A stretch of 33,108 nt of DNA, taken from contig JAPYUI010000003.1 of assembly GCA_029936175.1 (NCBI GenBank), positions 19,648-52,755 on the forward strand, read 5' to 3'. Below are positions 2,899-27,280 of this stretch, piece by piece. The stretch is from Kiritimatiellia bacterium (GTDB lineage Bacteria > Verrucomicrobiota > Kiritimatiellia > SS1-B-03-39 > UBA6053). The first letter of the stretch is position 1. Each line of letters starts with the position of its first letter. Made by a program: the position numbers and the translations under genes. The notes under the pieces are model-generated. The model was not told where the DNA came from, made no database searches, and was given only the letters and a program-made list of their open reading frames with translations.

Positions 2899-2983
2899 AC
2901 CTGGAATAAAGCACAATGGAAATTCCCTGTCCACCTCGGCTGTACCACTTGACTCCGCCCCATGCATCCGCCATCGTCTACCT

Positions 2984-5017
<2,034 letters not shown>

Positions 5018-18805: not shown

Positions 18806-21544
18806 CTACTCCGACAGGGTGGAAACCAGCTTGTTCAGTTTCTCCACCCGCTCCAACAGGTCCTTCTTCAGCTCCCTTTGCCGGTCGATCACATCCTCGG
18901 GCGCGTGCGCCACGAATTTCTCGTTATCCAGCTTCTTGGTAGTCTTGTCGAGATTGCCCTGGACCTTGTTGAGCTCTTTCATCAAGCGCTCCACCTCGGC
19001 GTCCCGGTCGATGAGGCCTTCCACCGGCATGCAAATCGAACCGAGTTTGGTCAACGCGCTGGGGACCGCGCTGTCCGGTTCATAATCCGGGTCAAGGGTG
19101 ATGAGATCCGCCTTCAGCAGGGCCACCACCGAGGCCAGGTCCTTCTCCAGGCGCTTACACGCTTTTTCACTGTTGGGCTTGATGGTAAAATTCACCCGCT
19201 TGGCAGCGAGATTGTAATCCGACTTGAGCAGGCGTCCGGTCCGAATCAGATCGCGCTTGTCTTCGACGTACGCGAAAACCACCTGGGTCGCACCCCAGGG
19301 CTTCAACTCGTCCACGTCCAGGGCCGTGGGCCAGGGTGCCCCCTGGACACTCTCGTGTTCACCGTTGTACCCCATGGCATGCCAGAGCTCTTCGGTGACA
19401 AAGGGCATCACCGGGTGAAGCAAACGAATGGCCTGGCTGAAGACATGGTGCATGACCTTCAGGACGGTATCCTTGCGGGCGCTGTCATCGCCGAAAAAAG
19501 CCTGCTTGCTGGATTCGACATACCAATCGCAAAAGTTGTGCCAGATAAAGTCGTACAACTCCTTGGCGTAGTCGTTGAAGCGGAATTTCTCCAGGTTCTC
19601 GCCACAGGCGTTGATCGTGTTCTGCAACTTGAACAGGATATGCTTGTCGTCACTGCTCAATATCGACGTATCCAACTCGGGTCGCGCAAAATCGGTGGGG
19701 GTCGCACCCTGCATCTGCATGAAACGTGCGGCGTTCCATATTTTCGTGGCGAAATTCCGGCCGATCTCAAAGTCCTTGAACTCTTCACGCAACTTTTCGT
19801 TCAAGTTGCCGTCCTTGTCGAAACCCACTGTAAGCTGGACGTCCTGGCCGGTGGCCGTGAGCATGATCAGGGTGAACCGCAGGGAGTCGGCGCTGTACTT
19901 TTCGATCACATCCAGGGGGTCGATCGAATTGTTGTAGGATTTTCCAGGCAAGGGACTCTTGCTCATCTTCCGACCCAGTTCATCCCGCACGGTTCCATGT
20001 AGGTAAACCTCGGAAAAGGGTATCTCCCCCATAAATTCAAGGCCCGCCATGATCATCCGTGCGACCCAGAAGAATATGATTTCCGGTGCCGTACTGAGGG
20101 TGTTCGTCGGGTAGTAGAACTTCATGTCATCGCTTTCCTCCGGCCAACCGAAGGTGCTGAAGGGCCAGAGCCATGAACTGAACCAGGTATCAAGCACGTC
20201 ATCATCCTGGCGGATCTCGCCCGAGGAGCACTTCGGGCAAACCTGGGCATCCTCGCGGTCGGCCCATTCATGGTCGCAGGCACTGCAGTAAAAAACCGGG
20301 ATGCGGTGTCCCCACCATATCTGGCGGGAAATGCACCAGTCCCGGATGTTATCCATCCAGTTCAAGTACGTTTTATTCCAGCGCTCGGGCACAAACCTGA
20401 TGCGGCCTTCGTTCACGACATCAATCGCGGGACGGGCCAACGGCTTCATTTTTACAAACCACTGCGGTGACAGGCGGGGTTCGACCACGGTGTGGCAGCG
20501 ATAACAATGCCCCACCTGGTGCTCATGATCCTCAACTTTGACCAGGAGCCCTTCGGCTTCGAGGTCCGCGACAATATTTTTCCGGCATTCAAAGCGATCC
20601 TGACCGGCGTAAGGCCCGGCATTTTCGTTCATCGTCCCGTCTTCATTCATCACGTTAATCGAAGGCAGGTTGTGACGCTGGCCCATCAGGTAATCATTCG
20701 GATCATGGGCGGGAGTGACTTTCACCACGCCGGTACCAAACTCCGGATCGACATAGTCATCTTCGATGACGATCAACTCGCGACCGAGAATCGGAAGGGT
20801 CGGGGTTTTCTCCTTCAGGTGGGCATAGCGCTCATCGCGAGGATTAACCGCGATACCGGTATCTCCAAGCAGGGTTTCCGGGCGGGTCGTGGCGACGATA
20901 ATCGCCTGTTCCCTGGTCCCATCCTTCACCATGTAACGGATGTGGTAGAACTTTCCCTGCTCCGCGCGGTGTTCACTTTCTTCGTCGGAAAGGGCCGTAT
21001 GGCAACCACAACACCAGTTGATAATGTAGTTGCCTCGATAAATCAGATCTTTCTCATACAGTCGACAGAAGACTTCGCGCACCGCCTGACTCAAGCCCGG
21101 GCTCATGGTGAAGGCTTCGCGATCCCAGTCACATGAACACCCCAATTTGCGGAGCTGATGGGTAATGGTAGAGCCGTTTTTCTCCTTGTACTCCCAGACC
21201 CTCTCCAGGAATTTCTCCCGACCGAGATCATCCCGACTCAAACCTTCTTTCCTGAGGTCGCGTTCCACGACGCTCTGGGTGGCAATCCCTGCGTGATCGG
21301 TTCCCGGGACCCAAACGGTATTGTAACCCTGCATGCGCTTCCAACGGATAAGGACATCCTGGACCGTGTTATTCAGCGCATGACCCATGTGCAATACGCC
21401 TGTCACATTCGGTGGAGGGATGACGATGCTGTACGGTTCGCCGCCTTTCGTATGATCAGATGAGAAGACCTTATCGGCTTCCCACTTGGCGTACCACTTG
21501 GCCTCGATGGCATGCGGGTCGAAATGTTTATCAAGTTCAGGCAT
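18806..21544 (-). CDS. valS: Valyl-tRNA synthetase
   Basis: ValS charges tRNA-Val with valine in the cytosol. From the ATG at 21544 (MPELDKHFDPHAIEAKWY) it has 912 residues. The class I motifs are HMGH (52-55, within PPPNVTGVLHMGH) and KMSKS (526-530). The CP1 editing domain that removes mischarged threonine is marked by ATTRPETLLGDT (218-229) and the HDPND block. A zinc ribbon is formed by C420, C423, C436 and C439. The C-terminal anticodon-binding domain is followed by the Val-specific coiled-coil arm (VERLMKELNKVQGNLDK...). The loop after KMSKS is longer than usual: PLPGKSYNNS precedes IDPLDVI where most ValS have four residues. The start overlaps the cimA stop by 8 nt, so it is probably translationally coupled as the last gene of the hom operon. 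Confidence 0.97.
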   Translation of the reverse strand: MPELDKHFDPHAIEAKWYAKWEADKVFSSDHTKGGEPYSIVIPPPNVTGVLHMGHALNNTVQDVLIRWKRMQGYNTVWVPGTDHAGIATQSVVERDLRKEGLSRDDLGREKFLERVWEYKEKNGSTITHQLRKLGCSCDWDREAFTMSPGLSQAVREVFCRLYEKDLIYRGNYIINWCCGCHTALSDEESEHRAEQGKFYHIRYMVKDGTREQAIIVATTRPETLLGDTGIAVNPRDERYAHLKEKTPTLPILGRELIVIEDDYVDPEFGTGVVKVTPAHDPNDYLMGQRHNLPSINVMNEDGTMNENAGPYAGQDRFECRKNIVADLEAEGLLVKVEDHEHQVGHCYRCHTVVEPRLSPQWFVKMKPLARPAIDVVNEGRIRFVPERWNKTYLNWMDNIRDWCISRQIWWGHRIPVFYCSACDHEWADREDAQVCPKCSSGEIRQDDDVLDTWFSSWLWPFSTFGWPEESDDMKFYYPTNTLSTAPEIIFFWVARMIMAGLEFMGEIPFSEVYLHGTVRDELGRKMSKSPLPGKSYNNSIDPLDVIEKYSADSLRFTLIMLTATGQDVQLTVGFDKDGNLNEKLREEFKDFEIGRNFATKIWNAARFMQMQGATPTDFARPELDTSILSSDDKHILFKLQNTINACGENLEKFRFNDYAKELYDFIWHNFCDWYVESSKQAFFGDDSARKDTVLKVMHHVFSQAIRLLHPVMPFVTEELWHAMGYNGEHESVQGAPWPTALDVDELKPWGATQVVFAYVEDKRDLIRTGRLLKSDYNLAAKRVNFTIKPNSEKACKRLEKDLASVVALLKADLITLDPDYEPDSAVPSALTKLGSICMPVEGLIDRDAEVERLMKELNKVQGNLDKTTKKLDNEKFVAHAPEDVIDRQRELKKDLLERVEKLNKLVSTLSE

Positions 21545-23126
21545 TCTTTTTCTCTTCCAACAAAAGCTTGAACTCCATGCTGTCAATCAAGGCTTCCAGG
21601 GAGGCCTCGATGACATTTTCGGATACCCCAACCGTGCTCCAGGTATCAACCCCATCGGTGGACTCGACAAGCACTCGCGTCCTGGCGGCCGTATGCTCCT
21701 CGGGGTCCAGGATACGCACACGGTAGTCGGTCAAAATCACCTCGGCAAGCACCGGATAGAATCGGCTAAGCGCCTTGCGCAGGGCCTGGTCGAGCGCATC
21801 CACCGGGCCATCGCCTTCGGCTACGGTGTATTCAGACTCTCCATTCACATCGATTTTCACGGAGGCTTCCGAAATCGTTTTCCCAGACGCCTCCCGCTTT
21901 TCCGCAATGGCGCGGAACATTTCCAGGGTGAAAAAGGATTGATGCTGCTTGAGCGTTTTTTGAATCAACAGTTGAAAGGAGGCATCGGCCGCCTCGAATT
22001 CGTACCCGGCCTGCTCCATGCGTTCCAATTCGCCACGAATCTCCTTCACCTCGGGTGCACCCTTATCGTAGTGCAGCCCCATCTCAACCAGCTTGAGAAA
22101 CACGTTGCTCGCACCGGACAATTCCGAGATCAGAATATGCCGGTCGTTGCCGACTTCGGATGGGTCGACGTGCTCAAAACTGGCGGGGTTTTTCCGCACG
22201 CCATCCACGTGCATACCGGCCTTGTGGGCAAAGGCACTCTCGCCAACATAAGGCAACTTAGGATTTGGCCGCACGTTAGCCAATTCGTACACGAATTCGG
22301 CCACGTCATGCAATTGCCCGATACTGCCCTCCCGCAGGCAGTCGTAACCAAGCTTCAACTTGAGGTTGGCGATCACGGAATTCAGATTCGCATTACCGGT
22401 CCGCTCGCCAAAACCATTGATGGTGCCCTGGATATGCACCGCGCCGGCCTGGATGGACGCGATGGAGTTGGCCACGCCGAGCTCGGCATCGTTGTGTGCA
22501 TGGATGCCGACCGGAAGACCGGTGGCATCGACCACGGCCCGGGTATATTCAGCCACTTCGTGGGACATGGTGCCACCGTTGGTGTCGCAAAGTACGAGAA
22601 TGTCGGCCCCCGCGTCCCCGGCCGCCTTCAGGGTGGAAATCGCATATTCAGGATCATCCTTATACCCGTCGAAAAAATGCTCCGCGTCGTATACAACTTC
22701 TTTACCATGCTCCTTGAGAAAAGCGACGGTGTCCGCGATCATGGCCCGGTTCTCCTCTTCGGTCGTTCGCAGGACGTCGTGCACGTGCAGCTTCCAGCTC
22801 TTGCCAAATATGGTGACCACCGGGGTATCCGCCTCGACCAGGGCCTGGCAGCCAAGGTCGTCTCCAGGATGGATATTCGCCCGCCGGGTACTCCCGAAAG
22901 CCGAGATCCTGGCATGGCTCAAACCTTGCTTTTTCACGTCGCGAAAAAAGGCCATGTCCTTGGGATTAGACGCGGCATAACCGCCTTCAATATAGTCGAC
23001 GCCGAACTCGTCCAGGCGCTTGGCCACGCGCAACTTTCCGCCAGGAGAAAAGGAGATCCCCTGGCCTTGCGCACCGTCCCGCAACGTGGTGTCGTAGATC
23101 GCAATACGTTTCATATCCCGGATCAA
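21537..23126 (-). CDS. cimA: (R)-citramalate synthase CimA
   Basis: CimA condenses pyruvate with acetyl-CoA to citramalate, opening a threonine-independent route to 2-oxobutyrate and isoleucine. The 529-residue protein has the DRE-TIM metallolyase start YDTTLRDGAQGQG, the metal-binding HAHND block with GIHAHNDAELG, and GTINGFGERTGNANL, which separate CimA from plain LeuA by the RDGAQ and EGGYAASNPKD stretches. The C-terminal LeuA-type regulatory dimer domain (after about residue 390, with VNGESEYTVAEGDGPVDALDQALRKAL) is where isoleucine normally binds. The start is a TTG at 23126 that overlaps the lysC stop (TTGA), with AGAGGAAAG just upstream; an ATG 12 nt further in (MKRIAIYD) is the alternative. 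It lies between lysC and valS in a five-gene operon. Confidence 0.93.
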   Translation of the reverse strand: MIRDMKRIAIYDTTLRDGAQGQGISFSPGGKLRVAKRLDEFGVDYIEGGYAASNPKDMAFFRDVKKQGLSHARISAFGSTRRANIHPGDDLGCQALVEADTPVVTIFGKSWKLHVHDVLRTTEEENRAMIADTVAFLKEHGKEVVYDAEHFFDGYKDDPEYAISTLKAAGDAGADILVLCDTNGGTMSHEVAEYTRAVVDATGLPVGIHAHNDAELGVANSIASIQAGAVHIQGTINGFGERTGNANLNSVIANLKLKLGYDCLREGSIGQLHDVAEFVYELANVRPNPKLPYVGESAFAHKAGMHVDGVRKNPASFEHVDPSEVGNDRHILISELSGASNVFLKLVEMGLHYDKGAPEVKEIRGELERMEQAGYEFEAADASFQLLIQKTLKQHQSFFTLEMFRAIAEKREASGKTISEASVKIDVNGESEYTVAEGDGPVDALDQALRKALSRFYPVLAEVILTDYRVRILDPEEHTAARTRVLVESTDGVDTWSTVGVSENVIEASLEALIDSMEFKLLLEEKKNA

Positions 23127-24346
23127 CTTTCCTCTTTATCCAGATCGAAGGCGGTGTGGATGACGCGAACAGCCTTGTCGGCCTGCGCTTCCTTGATGAT
23201 GACCGAAGTGCGAATCTCGCTGGTGGAGATCATGTGAATGTTGATCTCATTTTCAGCGAGCGCGCTGAACATGCGGTAGGCGATACCGGTGTGGTTTCGC
23301 ATGCCGACGCCGACGATACTGATCTTGGCCACTTTCTCGTCGTACATGACTTCCCCGTGCTCAATACCGCTCATGGTATTCGCTAGCACGGTTTTCACCT
23401 TCTTGAGTTCATCCGCGTTGGCGGTGAAGGATATATCATTCCGCCCCTGCTTGCTGTCGCTCTGGACGATCACATCGACATTGATGTCGGCGCGGGAAAT
23501 CTCCTGGAATATTTTAGCTGCCACGCCGGGTTGGTCCACCACGTCGGTGATGGTTATCTTGGACTGGTTTTTATCTATAGCGATTCCGCGGATAACAACG
23601 TCTTCCATATCTTTGACCTCTTCTTTCACAAGCGTTCCCGGCTTACGCCAGAAACTGCTGAGCACTTCAAGCTCCACTTCATATTTCTTGGCAAATTCGA
23701 CCGCACGGGACTGCAGGATATTCGCGCCCATGCTCGCGAACTCAAGCATTTCATCGTAGGCGATAACATCCAGTTTCTGCGCCGCGGATACGATCCGCGG
23801 ATCGCTCGTATAAACCCCATCCACATCGGTATAAATCTGGCAGCGATCGGCCTTCACGGCCGCAGCCATGGCCACCGCGGTCAAGTCAGAACCCCCGCGC
23901 CCGAGCGTAGCGATATTCTGCTCAGCGGTCAGCCCCTGGAAGCCCGCCACGATGACCACCCGGCCCTTCTGGATCTCGTTGAGCACCCGGTCGGGCTGGA
24001 TATCTTTTATTTTCGCCTTCGTGTGGGTGCCATCGGTAAAAATCCCTGCCTGCGGTCCGGTCATGGATACCGCCTCCGCACCCAGGGCATGCAGGGCCAT
24101 GGCGAGGAGGGAGATGGAAATCTGTTCGCCGGTGGATAAGAGCATATCGAATTCGCGATCACTGGGATCCGCGTGGACTTCCCCAGCCAGCTTCACCAGT
24201 TCATCGGTGGTCTTTCCCATGGCACTGACCACCACGATCACCTGATTGCCGTCCTGAACCGTATCGTAAATCCGCTGCGCCACGCGCTGGATGGATGCTG
24301 CATCCGCAACGGAAGTTCCACCGAATTTTTGTACTAACAGTGCCAT
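23123..24346 (-). CDS. lysC: Aspartate kinase
   Basis: Aspartate kinase phosphorylates aspartate at the head of the lysine, threonine, methionine and isoleucine pathway. The 407-residue product has the KFGGTS motif (7-12), the VSAMGKTTDELV block, the catalytic LGRGGSDLTA loop and YTDVDGVYTSDPR. The C-terminal region holds two ACT domains (starting at VIRGIAIDKNQSKITITDV and KISIVGVGMRNHTGIAYRMF), the usual site of feedback by lysine and/or threonine. The ATG at 24346 has an AAAGGT upstream. The start lies 2 nt after the stop of the apgM-like gene, and the lysC end overlaps the cimA start, so expression is tied to its neighbours. It is monofunctional, with hom as a separate gene two positions upstream. 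Confidence 0.97.
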   Translation of the reverse strand: MALLVQKFGGTSVADAASIQRVAQRIYDTVQDGNQVIVVVSAMGKTTDELVKLAGEVHADPSDREFDMLLSTGEQISISLLAMALHALGAEAVSMTGPQAGIFTDGTHTKAKIKDIQPDRVLNEIQKGRVVIVAGFQGLTAEQNIATLGRGGSDLTAVAMAAAVKADRCQIYTDVDGVYTSDPRIVSAAQKLDVIAYDEMLEFASMGANILQSRAVEFAKKYEVELEVLSSFWRKPGTLVKEEVKDMEDVVIRGIAIDKNQSKITITDVVDQPGVAAKIFQEISRADINVDVIVQSDSKQGRNDISFTANADELKKVKTVLANTMSGIEHGEVMYDEKVAKISIVGVGMRNHTGIAYRMFSALAENEINIHMISTSEIRTSVIIKEAQADKAVRVIHTAFDLDKEES

Positions 24347-24348
24347 GA

Positions 24349-25491
24349 TTACCTTTTCTGAAAAAAATCAAAGAGACGTGTTGCCGACAGGATGCCCGCC
24401 TTGCCACGTCGAGCCTGCCCCTCGCTCCATTGTTTCACCGCATCGCTTTCGACATCCGGTTCATAGAGAACAACCGGTGTTTTCGCCGAGAGGGGTTTGC
24501 CGGTATCCGCGTCCACCGCACCGTTGGAGACCAGGGCCAGGCGCAGGTCTTTCCACGCCTGCAGATATTCCATGACTGGGCGCGTAATATGGAAATCCAG
24601 GTGGTCGAGATGCAGTACCCGCGCCCGCGCGCTACCGGTCGTCTCGGCCGAAGCAACGATGAGAAGGTGGTCGCGACCCATGATATTGCGCTCGAAAACC
24701 TCCGCGAAACTGGCACTGTCGAAAGCCTCTGTTTCCATTCCCAGCTGCCGGGCCAGGCCACGTGCGATGTGTGAGTCGCTGATACAGGCGGCACGATCCG
24801 GCATTGGCCGGCCGGAAAAATCGCCGGGCATATGCCCCCCACCCCAGAGCCAGACACCATTGGCCGGAATCTCCCCAAGATCGATACGGACGTCGTTGAC
24901 GGCATGGCAAGCCAGGATCTCCTCAGCGAGGCTGCGGAAACTCTCAAGGCGGCGATCTTCCCTGGCGCAGGGCCAGCAGGCATCGATACGCGAACCCACC
25001 TGCTGCCAAGGGGCAAGGCCTTCGCTGGCGTTTACGCGAAAGTGGTGGAAAACGGCGAGAAAGCGGCCGGGAGCGGTCACATGCAGCGTGATGTCGAGAC
25101 CGCCGCTGACCCGCTGCAAGGCTTCGACCAGCTCGCGGGTTTCATCGGCACTGAGGGGAATACAGGGGTCCAGCAGGCGTTCGCCATCCGTGTTGACGAG
25201 ACAGCCGCAGAACACGAGGTCGTAGGGACCCGCCTCCCGGCGAGCGGCGAGGCTCAGTGGACCGGGCTGGAGGGCCTTGGCCTCCTTCACGGATAAGCCC
25301 AGCAGGGTGCCGAGGCCAATTTCGCTTCGGCCCTTGGCCATGTTGGGATAGGGTTTGAGCAGACCGCTGCGCCCGCGTTCCGCAAGTTGTGCGGACGCGC
25401 TGCAGCGGGCGGTTTCCAACAGGGTACGACCGTCCAGTTGACCGCTTGCGGATCCCGAAGCTCCCTCAAATACTAACATGATCGTCTTCAA
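24349..25491 (-). CDS. Degenerate ApgM-like protein (phosphoglycerate mutase family) in the aspartate operon
   Basis: A 380-residue protein that follows the ApgM (archaeal-type cofactor-independent phosphoglycerate mutase) fold along its length: GRTLLETARCSASAQLAERG, the GLLGL-like turn, GPLSLAARR, FCGCLVNTDG, and especially AACISDSHIARGLARQLGM, which matches the ACISGxALxKGVAxMLGM block. But most metal-site motifs are gone. The N-terminal DGxGD is FEGASG, the GSDxAH nucleophile block is GRSEIGL (a Ser remains), the EAPDEAGH-type motif is LHLDHLDFH, and the PDHPTP block is SNGAV. It therefore is unlikely to be a normal mutase. Placed between hom and lysC, it may serve the homoserine or threonine branch; ApgM relatives have been proposed, from gene context, as homoserine kinase stand-ins. 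Start is a TTG at 25491, 12 nt after the hom stop, with AGGTG upstream. Confidence 0.8.
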   Translation of the reverse strand: MKTIMLVFEGASGSASGQLDGRTLLETARCSASAQLAERGRSGLLKPYPNMAKGRSEIGLGTLLGLSVKEAKALQPGPLSLAARREAGPYDLVFCGCLVNTDGERLLDPCIPLSADETRELVEALQRVSGGLDITLHVTAPGRFLAVFHHFRVNASEGLAPWQQVGSRIDACWPCAREDRRLESFRSLAEEILACHAVNDVRIDLGEIPANGVWLWGGGHMPGDFSGRPMPDRAACISDSHIARGLARQLGMETEAFDSASFAEVFERNIMGRDHLLIVASAETTGSARARVLHLDHLDFHITRPVMEYLQAWKDLRLALVSNGAVDADTGKPLSAKTPVVLYEPDVESDAVKQWSEGQARRGKAGILSATRLFDFFQKR

Positions 25492-25503: not shown

Positions 25504-26802
25504 CTAGTCCAGATCATCTACAATAATGCGGACGATATCGGGACCGACCACATCCATCTTTTCCAGGTCAGCAATAGCATCCATCACGTTCCGGACATCC
25601 GATATGCGGGTCAGGATGATCGCGGGCACGGAATCACCTACGTGCTCGGTTTTCTGGATGACCGAAGCAATGCTGATCCCGTGATCACCGAGGGTACGGG
25701 CCACTGCCGCCAGGGTGCCCGGTCGATCCAGGAGGCTTAACCGCAGGTAATAGCGGGCCTCAATATCCTGGATGGGGCGGATATCCGGGGGATTACTCTG
25801 CTCGTGCTGCGGTGCCAGACGGTGGCGGGCATCCAACGCGATGTTGCGGGCGATATCCACAATATCAGCCACGACCGCGCTGGCCGTGGGTTCACGCCCC
25901 GCCCCACGGCCGTAATAAAGCGTCTGGCCAACCACGTCGCCATTCACAAGAACCGCGTTGTAGACGCCATCAACTTTGGCCAGCATGTGGTTTACCGGGA
26001 CGAGGGTCGGATGAACGCGTACATCCACCGAGCCGTTGTCCTGCTTGATAATGCCAAGCAATTTTATGCGATATCCCAATTCAAGCGCATAGCGGATATC
26101 CAGGGTGGAGAGGCCGCGAATACCCTCGGTATGCACCTCATCCATCGAAACGGTGCGGCCAAAGGCGATACTCGCCAGCAGAATCGCCTTGTGCGCGGTG
26201 TCCAGTCCGTCGATATCCAGTCCGGGCTCGGCTTCGGCGAAGCCGAGTTCCTGTGCGTCCTTCAAGACCTCGTCAAAGGCATTGCCATCCCGTTCCATAC
26301 GGGTCAGGATGTAATTGCAGGTACCGTTGAGGATACCGTAGATGCTGTCGATATGGTTGGCTACCAGGCCCTCGCGCAGGGCCTTGATCACCGGGATACC
26401 CCCGCCGACGCTGGCTTCGTAAAAGAGATCGGTCTGGTGTTCGGACGCCGTCTTGAAGATATCCTCGCCGCATTCCGCCAGCAGGGCCTTGTTGGCCGTT
26501 ACCACGGACTTCCCGTTGCTGAGGGCTTGGATTATGAAGTCTTTTGCGATCGTGGTACCGCCGATGAGCTCGACCACGATATCGATATCCGGCGCCTGCA
26601 GGACATCCGCGGCGTCCGTGCTGAGGATGCCTGGATCCAGCACAACCCCACGATCCGTCTCGATGTCGAGGTCGACCACCTTCCGCAGAACCAACCGTAC
26701 CCCGGAGCGGTCCGAGAGCAAATCTCCGTTGGTGATGAGGGCCTGAACCACGCCCACCCCCACGGTGCCGAATCCCAGCACACCTATGCCAATTTCTTTC
26801 AT
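25504..26802 (-). CDS. hom: Homoserine dehydrogenase
   Basis: Homoserine dehydrogenase reduces aspartate semialdehyde to homoserine with NAD(P)H. The 432-residue form is the monofunctional type with a C-terminal ACT domain. The Rossmann glycine motif is GFGTVG (10-15). The substrate domain contains NGTCNYILTRM, and the AEADPxLDIDG-type block appears as FAEAEPGLDIDGLDTAHK, with the catalytic Lys in AHK. The ACT domain starts at YYLRLSLLDRPGTLAAVARTL and is the normal threonine-sensing site. The start ATG at 26802 has an AGGA about 10 nt upstream. It is the first gene of a leftward operon hom, apgM-like, lysC, cimA, valS and is preceded by a terminator and putative attenuator leader. Confidence 0.97.
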   Translation of the reverse strand: MKEIGIGVLGFGTVGVGVVQALITNGDLLSDRSGVRLVLRKVVDLDIETDRGVVLDPGILSTDAADVLQAPDIDIVVELIGGTTIAKDFIIQALSNGKSVVTANKALLAECGEDIFKTASEHQTDLFYEASVGGGIPVIKALREGLVANHIDSIYGILNGTCNYILTRMERDGNAFDEVLKDAQELGFAEAEPGLDIDGLDTAHKAILLASIAFGRTVSMDEVHTEGIRGLSTLDIRYALELGYRIKLLGIIKQDNGSVDVRVHPTLVPVNHMLAKVDGVYNAVLVNGDVVGQTLYYGRGAGREPTASAVVADIVDIARNIALDARHRLAPQHEQSNPPDIRPIQDIEARYYLRLSLLDRPGTLAAVARTLGDHGISIASVIQKTEHVGDSVPAIILTRISDVRNVMDAIADLEKMDVVGPDIVRIIVDDLD

Positions 26803-26824
26803 GCTTAAAACATCCTGTCGGGGT

Positions 26825-26853
26825 AAAAAAAAACGCCCTTCGCGGTGAAGGGC
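26825..26853 (-). terminator. Intrinsic terminator in the hom leader (attenuator)
   Basis: On the minus strand, GCCCTTC (26853-26847) and GAAGGGC (26841-26835) form a perfect 7-bp stem with a 5-nt loop, followed after one G by nine consecutive T. It sits 22 nt in front of the hom start codon and faces into the operon, so it would stop transcription before hom. A terminator in this place only makes sense as a regulated one. Confidence 0.85.
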
Positions 26854-26894
26854 ATTACGATCCGAATGCGTGTATCATTCAGCTCATAACGCCC
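26850..26894 (-). promoter_or_regulatory. Antiterminator helix competing with the hom leader terminator
   Basis: In the minus-strand RNA, GGGCGUUAUG (26894-26885) can pair over 10 bp, including G-U pairs, with CGUAAUGCCC (26859-26850). The second arm contains the first bases of the terminator stem, so the two structures exclude each other. The enclosed segment folds further into a small hairpin, GAAUG (26880-26876) with CAUUC (26868-26864). The first arm overlaps the end and stop codon of the 15-codon leader ORF. Confidence 0.65.
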
Positions 26895-26931
26895 GGGGGC
26901 CAACAATCATTTGGGTTAGCTTAACCATCAT
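26884..26931 (-). CDS. Putative 15-residue leader peptide of the hom attenuator
   Basis: ATG at 26931 to TGA at 26884-26886 encodes MMVKLTQMIVGPRAL. Nine of the first ten residues after counting Q aside are Met, Val, Lys, Leu, Thr or Ile: amino acids made from aspartate or by the branched-chain route, which is what the operon supplies or charges. The stop codon overlaps the first arm of the antiterminator helix. A ribosome that stalls at codons 6-10 (Thr, Met, Ile, Val) would leave that arm free and allow read-through; one that reaches the stop would cover it and let the terminator form. There is no clear Shine-Dalgarno; a short upstream ORF ending in AAATGATGG might couple translation. The peptide is too short to prove by codon statistics. 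Confidence 0.55.
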   Translation of the reverse strand: MMVKLTQMIVGPRAL

Positions 26932-27034
26932 TTGTGGCTGTAAGTAAGCAAATTGCAGGCCATTACAAGTAGAAACCCGCTGCAAAATTATGCTAGAACT
27001 ATAGGGATATGAGGTCCTACCGGAGGATTATAAG

Positions 27035-27280
27035 ATGAAAGCTGTACTTGTACTACTACTGTTAAGCGCCTGCATTTGGCTTGGTTACGAAAATTATCAG
27101 AACGGGCTTAGGATCGCGCAGCAGGAAACCACCATCCAGGCACTTCAGGACCAACTGAAGCAGCAGAAAGTCCGTGCTGCCCAGACGGTAAGCCCTTCAC
27201 ATCGACTCGGACCTGTTCGCCAGAAATCCTCCGGATCCAAGAAATCCCCGTTTCGACTCAGTGGGCCCAAGCGCAAATAG
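27035..27280 (+). CDS. Small membrane-anchored basic protein
   Basis: The ATG at 27035 has a strong GGAGG at 27022-27026 with 8-nt spacing. The 81-residue product starts with one hydrophobic helix (VLVLLLLSACIWLGYENY), which may be a membrane anchor or a lipoprotein signal with C13. A short coiled-coil stretch follows (RIAQQETTIQALQDQLKQQK), then a basic Ser- and Pro-rich tail ending GPKRK. No family is recognised. It diverges from the hom operon and lies 169 nt before the kinase gene on the same strand, so a joint transcript is possible. Confidence 0.75.
   Translation: MKAVLVLLLLSACIWLGYENYQNGLRIAQQETTIQALQDQLKQQKVRAAQTVSPSHRLGPVRQKSSGSKKSPFRLSGPKRK

Follow-up and report, generated by a model that had tools for sequence, protein, structure and literature searches.

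The closest described counterpart of the leader studied here is that of the enteric thr operon (thrL; Rfam RF00506, Thr_leader), where a short ORF with many Thr and Ile codons, followed by a terminator, lies ahead of the gene that opens an aspartate-to-threonine operon and an antiterminator competes for the 5' arm of the terminator. Outside Proteobacteria, the his leader of bacilli is ribosome-mediated (PMC2965389), as are the ilv leaders of Corynebacterium and Staphylococcus (PMC10272879, PMC5794164). These his and ilv leaders apply the same principle in other phyla, with amino acids and target genes that differ from those of the hom leader. A survey published in 2010 gave no groups other than Proteobacteria and Actinobacteria as previously known to use leader-peptide attenuation, and contributed one case from Firmicutes (PMC2965389). 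T-box leaders are similar in that they sense amino-acid supply, through tRNA, and choose between a terminator and an antiterminator.

We analysed a stretch of 33,108 nucleotides from a Kiritimatiellia bacterium (the window), in which hom heads an operon of the order hom-apgM-lysC-cimA-valS. We put the probability at about 0.85 that this operon is under a ribosome-mediated transcription attenuator and that the leader in the window is a divergent copy of a Thr/Ile leader that several families of the class have before hom. Judged by sequence comparison, the hom leader is a real, selected device that would work like the enteric thr type, with structural peculiarities of its own. In contrast to the enteric leader, the class leaders place the antiterminator arm either at the stop codon or within the final codons, the ORF in several class genomes starts a few bases after the inferred transcription start, and the operon here carries apgM, lysC, cimA and valS. 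It differs from T-box leaders in that there is no Rfam T-box match here and, if the inferred promoter is right, too little sequence ahead of the ORF to hold a specifier stem. RF00506 scored over its cut-off in none of the 334 class genomes and nowhere in the window; its sub-threshold matches in the class lie elsewhere than the hom leaders that we found. A literature search found no such leader reported for the lineage, which does not prove that there is none.

The hom operon and the layout of its leader

Profile matches confirmed the five genes of the operon, as the sequence-only reading had named them, all on the minus strand: hom, homoserine dehydrogenase and the first gene (25504-26802; NF004976, 527 bits); an apgM-like gene (24349-25491; matches to TIGR00306 and TIGR02535 below the curated cut-offs); lysC, aspartate kinase (23123-24346; NF005155, 582 bits); cimA, citramalate synthase (21537-23126; TIGR00977, 703 bits); and valS, valyl-tRNA synthetase (18806-21586, start codon uncertain; NF004349, 1153 bits). 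Threonine and isoleucine are both made by a pathway that requires lysC and hom, and cimA opens a second route to isoleucine. TIGR02535 stands for a proposed homoserine kinase, and this apgM-like gene, lying between hom and lysC, may be the homoserine kinase of the operon. The order hom-(apgM)-lysC-cimA-valS, complete or partial, also occurs in the leader-bearing genomes G038, G080, G041 and G011.

The leader lies before hom on the same strand. It contains a leader peptide ORF of 15 codons, MMVKLTQMIVGPRAL (26884-26931; ATG ATG GTT AAG CTA ACC CAA ATG ATT GTT GGC CCC CGG GCG TTA TGA), with the stop TGA at 26886-26884. An intrinsic terminator follows 27 nt after the stop: a 7-bp hairpin, GCCCTTC-ACCGC-GAAGGGC (regions 3:4; 26853-26835), which was the highest-ranked match in the terminator scan, then one G and a run of nine T (26825-26833) that is separated from the hom start codon by 22 bases. 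Because the upstream neighbours lie on the opposite strand, the terminator is not likely to be part of a preceding gene. The final codons of the ORF and its stop make up the 5' arm of a predicted antiterminator (region 2, GGGCGTTATGA, 26894-26884), which forms 11 pairs with the 3' arm TCGTAATGCCC (26860-26850). Between the arms, CTGAATG (26882-26876) and CATTCGG (26868-26862) form an upper stem-loop (26862-26882) of 7 pairs, giving 18 pairs in total. The 3' arm has GCCC in common with the terminator (region 3), so that the two hairpins are mutually exclusive. The window thus holds a short ORF before the first structural gene, an intrinsic terminator between this ORF and hom, and a mutually exclusive antiterminator that uses the 5' arm of the terminator, as attenuators in general do. 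The sequence-only reading had placed the ORF, the terminator and the nine T correctly; it had also recognised the antiterminator and its overlap with the ORF stop, but had listed only 10 of the 18 pairs.

The antiterminator was supported by a shuffle test as well as by sequence and, for the 5' arm and the upper stem-loop, by folding. In this test the terminator was kept fixed and the preceding region was shuffled 1000 times with its dinucleotides preserved. The gain from capturing the terminator 5' arm was -16.7 kcal/mol, compared to a shuffle mean of -2.9, and none of the 1000 shuffles equalled the window. The antiterminator hairpin alone had z = -5.65 and the folding of the entire leader z = -3.0. 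The 15-codon ORF alone was not significant in the window, as frames of such length are common.

Upstream of the ORF, on the minus strand, we found a probable -35 hexamer TTGTAA (in CTTGTAA, 26963-26968) and a probable -10 hexamer TACTTA (26941-26946), which, with the spacing read from the sequence, is 16 nt from the -35 and ends 9 nt before the leader ATG. The layout CTTGTnn-N16-TAnnnT is present upstream of most leaders of the class described below (L025-L052, L062-L068 and L078), and in the window and several relatives only 8-14 bases separate the end of the -10 from the leader start codon. This suggests that the leader ORFs are near-leaderless, with transcription starting only a few bases before the leader ATG. 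We found no Shine-Dalgarno sequence before the ORF in the window, which a near-leaderless start would explain if such ORFs are translated here. Two further features were seen in this region. A perfect palindrome, GGTTAAGCTAACC (26914-26926, minus strand), lies within the leader ORF close to the inferred transcription start and takes in CTA, a rare codon for Leu (2% of Leu codons); it is a possible pause hairpin. Divergently from hom, a small ORF at 27035-27280 on the plus strand (MKAVLVLLLLSACIWLGYENYQ...) has a signal- or lipoprotein-like start.

Related leaders precede hom in other families of the class

Upstream of hom, 23 other class genomes from eight other families (f2, f11, f12, f14, f17, f23, f30 and f31) carry an ORF of 12-18 codons, an arm adjoining its stop and a terminator that this arm can block; with the window this makes 24 leaders in nine families. 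Examples of the relatives' peptides are MKTVVTKIIIVSGGS, MVQTKVTTIIVGFS, MSVVINTVTIIVTTNP, MKTTTVIAITTTSCA and MMRLTVIMTMAGSS. The relatives usually have TGA-GGGG at the ORF stop and a terminator CCCCTC...GAGGGG or GCCCCGC...GCGGGGC 18-33 bases downstream, a range that includes the distance in the window. The core T-x-x-I-V-G of the window peptide resembles TTIIVG of G080, and its antiterminator arm within the last codons is paralleled in G039. The exact pattern TGAGGGG(10-38)CCCCTC(2-9)GAGGGGTTTTT had 10 matches in 346 genomes and its reversed control had none. Nine of these were leaders from which the pattern had come; the tenth, in G064, likewise lies before hom and has the leader peptide MNSAATIIITITTTGGF. 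The hom of this genome (L134) aligns as two pieces in different frames (residues 1-123 and 126-432), possibly owing to an assembly frameshift.

We built a covariance model, R2, from 16 leaders and searched the 346 genomes with it. Within the class, 20 matches had E values of 3.7e-7 or lower, and tblastn placed every one of them directly before hom; four (G039, G131, G132 and G311) are absent from the model. Weaker full-length matches in G135 and G127 were also located before hom; several equally weak ones cover the terminator part only. Phylum-wide, the R2 matches that we examined outside the class were a tRNA plus a terminator or an unrelated pilin-gene leader, and none preceded hom. In two loci of another class (L165 and L167) a conserved leader GGCGGGGCCTAGGG...TTTTTTTT lies mid-locus before a small Flp-type-pilin-like protein (MKQKRLERMKHSR...). 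In the upstream regions of ilvB from five genomes, inspected by eye, we saw no such attenuator.

The leader in the window matched R2 from end to end, stop aligned with stop, at 13.0 bits (E = 2.6e-4 over 401 bases). On 55 regions upstream of hom genes that have no leader, the best score was 10.0, and the leader of G011, from the same order as the window, reached 27. The first model, R1, had not found the window, and in the whole-genome search with R2 the window copy was below the threshold and its own genome gave no match. We therefore assign it to the R2 family by its position, layout and structure in addition to its score.

Twelve genomes represent the order. The hom genes matched in genomes of the same family or the same order are 49-56% identical to that of the window (53-56% within the family). 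No leader was found in the same-family genomes with a hom match, and among the same-order genomes only G011 has one; a scan of genome contigs for close relatives of this hom found none. The leader trait was clustered on the hom tree, with 7 changes compared to 17.1 after shuffling (0 of 500 shuffles as low), and the window hom branches, with weak support, beside the leaderless hom genes of its own family. The history of the leader, as read from this tree, fits inheritance with repeated loss; the change count does not prove a single origin.

The leaders point to threonine and isoleucine as the signal

We compared the residues of the 23 relatives' leader peptides with the proteins of the window. 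Thr made up 22% of the leader residues compared to 5% (p = 1e-26) and Ile 16% compared to 6% (p = 1e-10); Val was weakly enriched (11% versus 8%, p = 0.015) and Leu was depleted (2.8% versus 9%). These figures took G064 with another start; as MNSAATIIITITTTGGF, its peptide is more Thr/Ile-rich. Enrichment in codons for the products of the operon is thus strong in the 23 relatives (Thr and Ile) and absent by composition in the window alone, where Thr, Ile and Val account for 4 of 14 residues, not a significant share, with only one Thr and one Ile codon. Taken together, the peptide sequences point to threonine and isoleucine as the signal sensed by the leaders. The sequence-only reading had called the window ORF rich in the amino acids of the pathway and had proposed an independent version that senses several aspartate and branched-chain amino acids at once. 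Independence is compatible with the lack of RF00506 matches over the cut-off; Met, Lys and Leu as signals are not supported by an enrichment in the relatives that is strong only for Thr and Ile.

The switch and its proposed mechanism

The two arms were next compared across the leaders as a switch. In 21 of the 24 leaders the 5' arm of the terminator is predicted to pair with the stop-side arm (combined p about 7e-13, with related leaders treated as independent). In this test the arm starts at the stop codon, a start chosen after the result of the first version had been seen; that version, in which the last three sense codons were left free, was weak in the relatives because of competing protector hairpins. 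Each leader's own arm pairs also scored above swapped arms (p = 5e-5). The checks that the sequence-only reading had itself named thus support the ribosome-mediated attenuation of hom that it proposed: the ORF is retained in the relatives, the two arms fit each other genome by genome, and the scans gave no match to a riboswitch model.

We simulated a ribosome whose footprint on the RNA reaches 15 bases beyond the first base of the P site (the value of +15 is an assumption). In the window, predicted antitermination was about 50% with Thr6 in the A site, 93% with Met8 and 98% with Ile9, and 0% from Val10 to the stop. Over all leaders, in the co-transcriptional mode, with the terminator 3' arm not yet synthesised, Thr and Ile codons lay at positions where a stalled ribosome favours antitermination (difference 0.137, circular-shift p = 0.0006). 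Their effect was weak when the full-length leader was treated at equilibrium (p = 0.09). According to fold predictions, several relatives (e.g. G038, G062 and G131) have, between the ORF end and the arm, a protector hairpin that would promote termination in the absence of a ribosome. A strong protector hairpin is absent in the window, so that an untranslated leader should mostly read through; in the free leader the predicted probability of the terminator was 0.15, with an antiterminator much stronger than the terminator.

From the ORF, the alternative hairpins, their conservation and the Thr/Ile enrichment of the relatives, all of which come from sequence comparison, we infer a leader that is translated, stalls ribosomes and controls read-through from the probable promoter. 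Transcription would start just upstream of the leader ORF, as the promoter spacing indicates. When charged tRNA is plentiful, the ribosome would reach the ORF end and cover GGGCGTTATGA, the terminator would form and RNA polymerase would stop. When Thr or Ile is short, the ribosome would stall at Thr6 to Ile9 and leave the arm free; the antiterminator would then take the 5' arm of the terminator and the operon would be transcribed.

Alternative explanations

Riboswitches and T-boxes also typically use terminator/antiterminator pairs, and a ligand or an uncharged tRNA that binds an aptamer in the leader could choose the hairpin, the ORF being accidental. The terminator loop ACCGC does resemble a fragment of a T-box end. 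The sequence-only reading had held a riboswitch to be the main alternative, but no riboswitch or T-box model matched: in the window leader and ten relatives no Rfam family reached its gathering score, with only unrelated families below the threshold (E up to 10). Among these, NsiR1, suhB and anti-hemB were weak matches mainly over the hairpins and were rejected. The same scan does detect a TPP riboswitch elsewhere in the window. Moreover, the probable -10 is so near the leader start codon that a 5' UTR of a few bases is expected, which leaves no room for an upstream aptamer, and the Thr/Ile enrichment of the relatives would have no explanation. The related leaders largely refute a riboswitch or T-box, which we consider very unlikely. 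(The TPP riboswitch lies at 2981-3076 on the plus strand, 58.2 bits, directly before a thiC-like gene at 3116.) Control by a protein, for which we see the least chance, would involve a regulator on the DNA of the palindrome GGTTAAGCTAACC or an RNA-binding protein on the leader, with hairpins that merely stabilise the mRNA. The palindrome is perfect and lies in the ORF near the inferred transcription start; its three occurrences in the 5-Mb genome, however, are close to the number expected by chance for a motif with ten fixed bases, the relatives' leaders do not have it, and the terminator before the first gene would be left unexplained.

A different question is whether the leader in the window has decayed, that is, whether an ancestral Thr/Ile sensor is now mostly constitutive in its read-through, with little codon specificity. 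The single Thr and single Ile codon, the excess of the antiterminator over the terminator (with the low terminator probability of the free leader) and the lack of a leader in other members of the family all speak for this. On the other hand, a decaying leader would be unlikely to retain its ORF intact, 18 pairs that are nearly perfect and a perfect terminator followed by nine T, and the switch point in the window still falls between Ile9 and Val10. We regard decay as improbable, and a functional ribosome-mediated attenuator remains the reading that we prefer for the window.

Implications

A broader proposal, to which we would give slightly under even odds, is that these leaders form an undescribed family of Thr/Ile attenuators, unrelated in sequence to the enteric one and distributed across a single class of an understudied phylum. 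Its members would have the antiterminator arm in the stop codon and a near-leaderless ORF without need of a Shine-Dalgarno sequence, and the copy in the window would have drifted to read-through by default, stopping transcription only when the peptide is completed.

The same logic in another lineage, with unrelated sequence, is evidence that leader-peptide switches arise repeatedly. For these bacteria, known mainly from draft genomes, the leader predicts that valS and the synthesis of threonine and isoleucine are controlled together. Together with a searchable model, the 24 natural variants may help to answer how few control codons suffice for such a switch and whether near-leaderless ORFs can drive attenuation.
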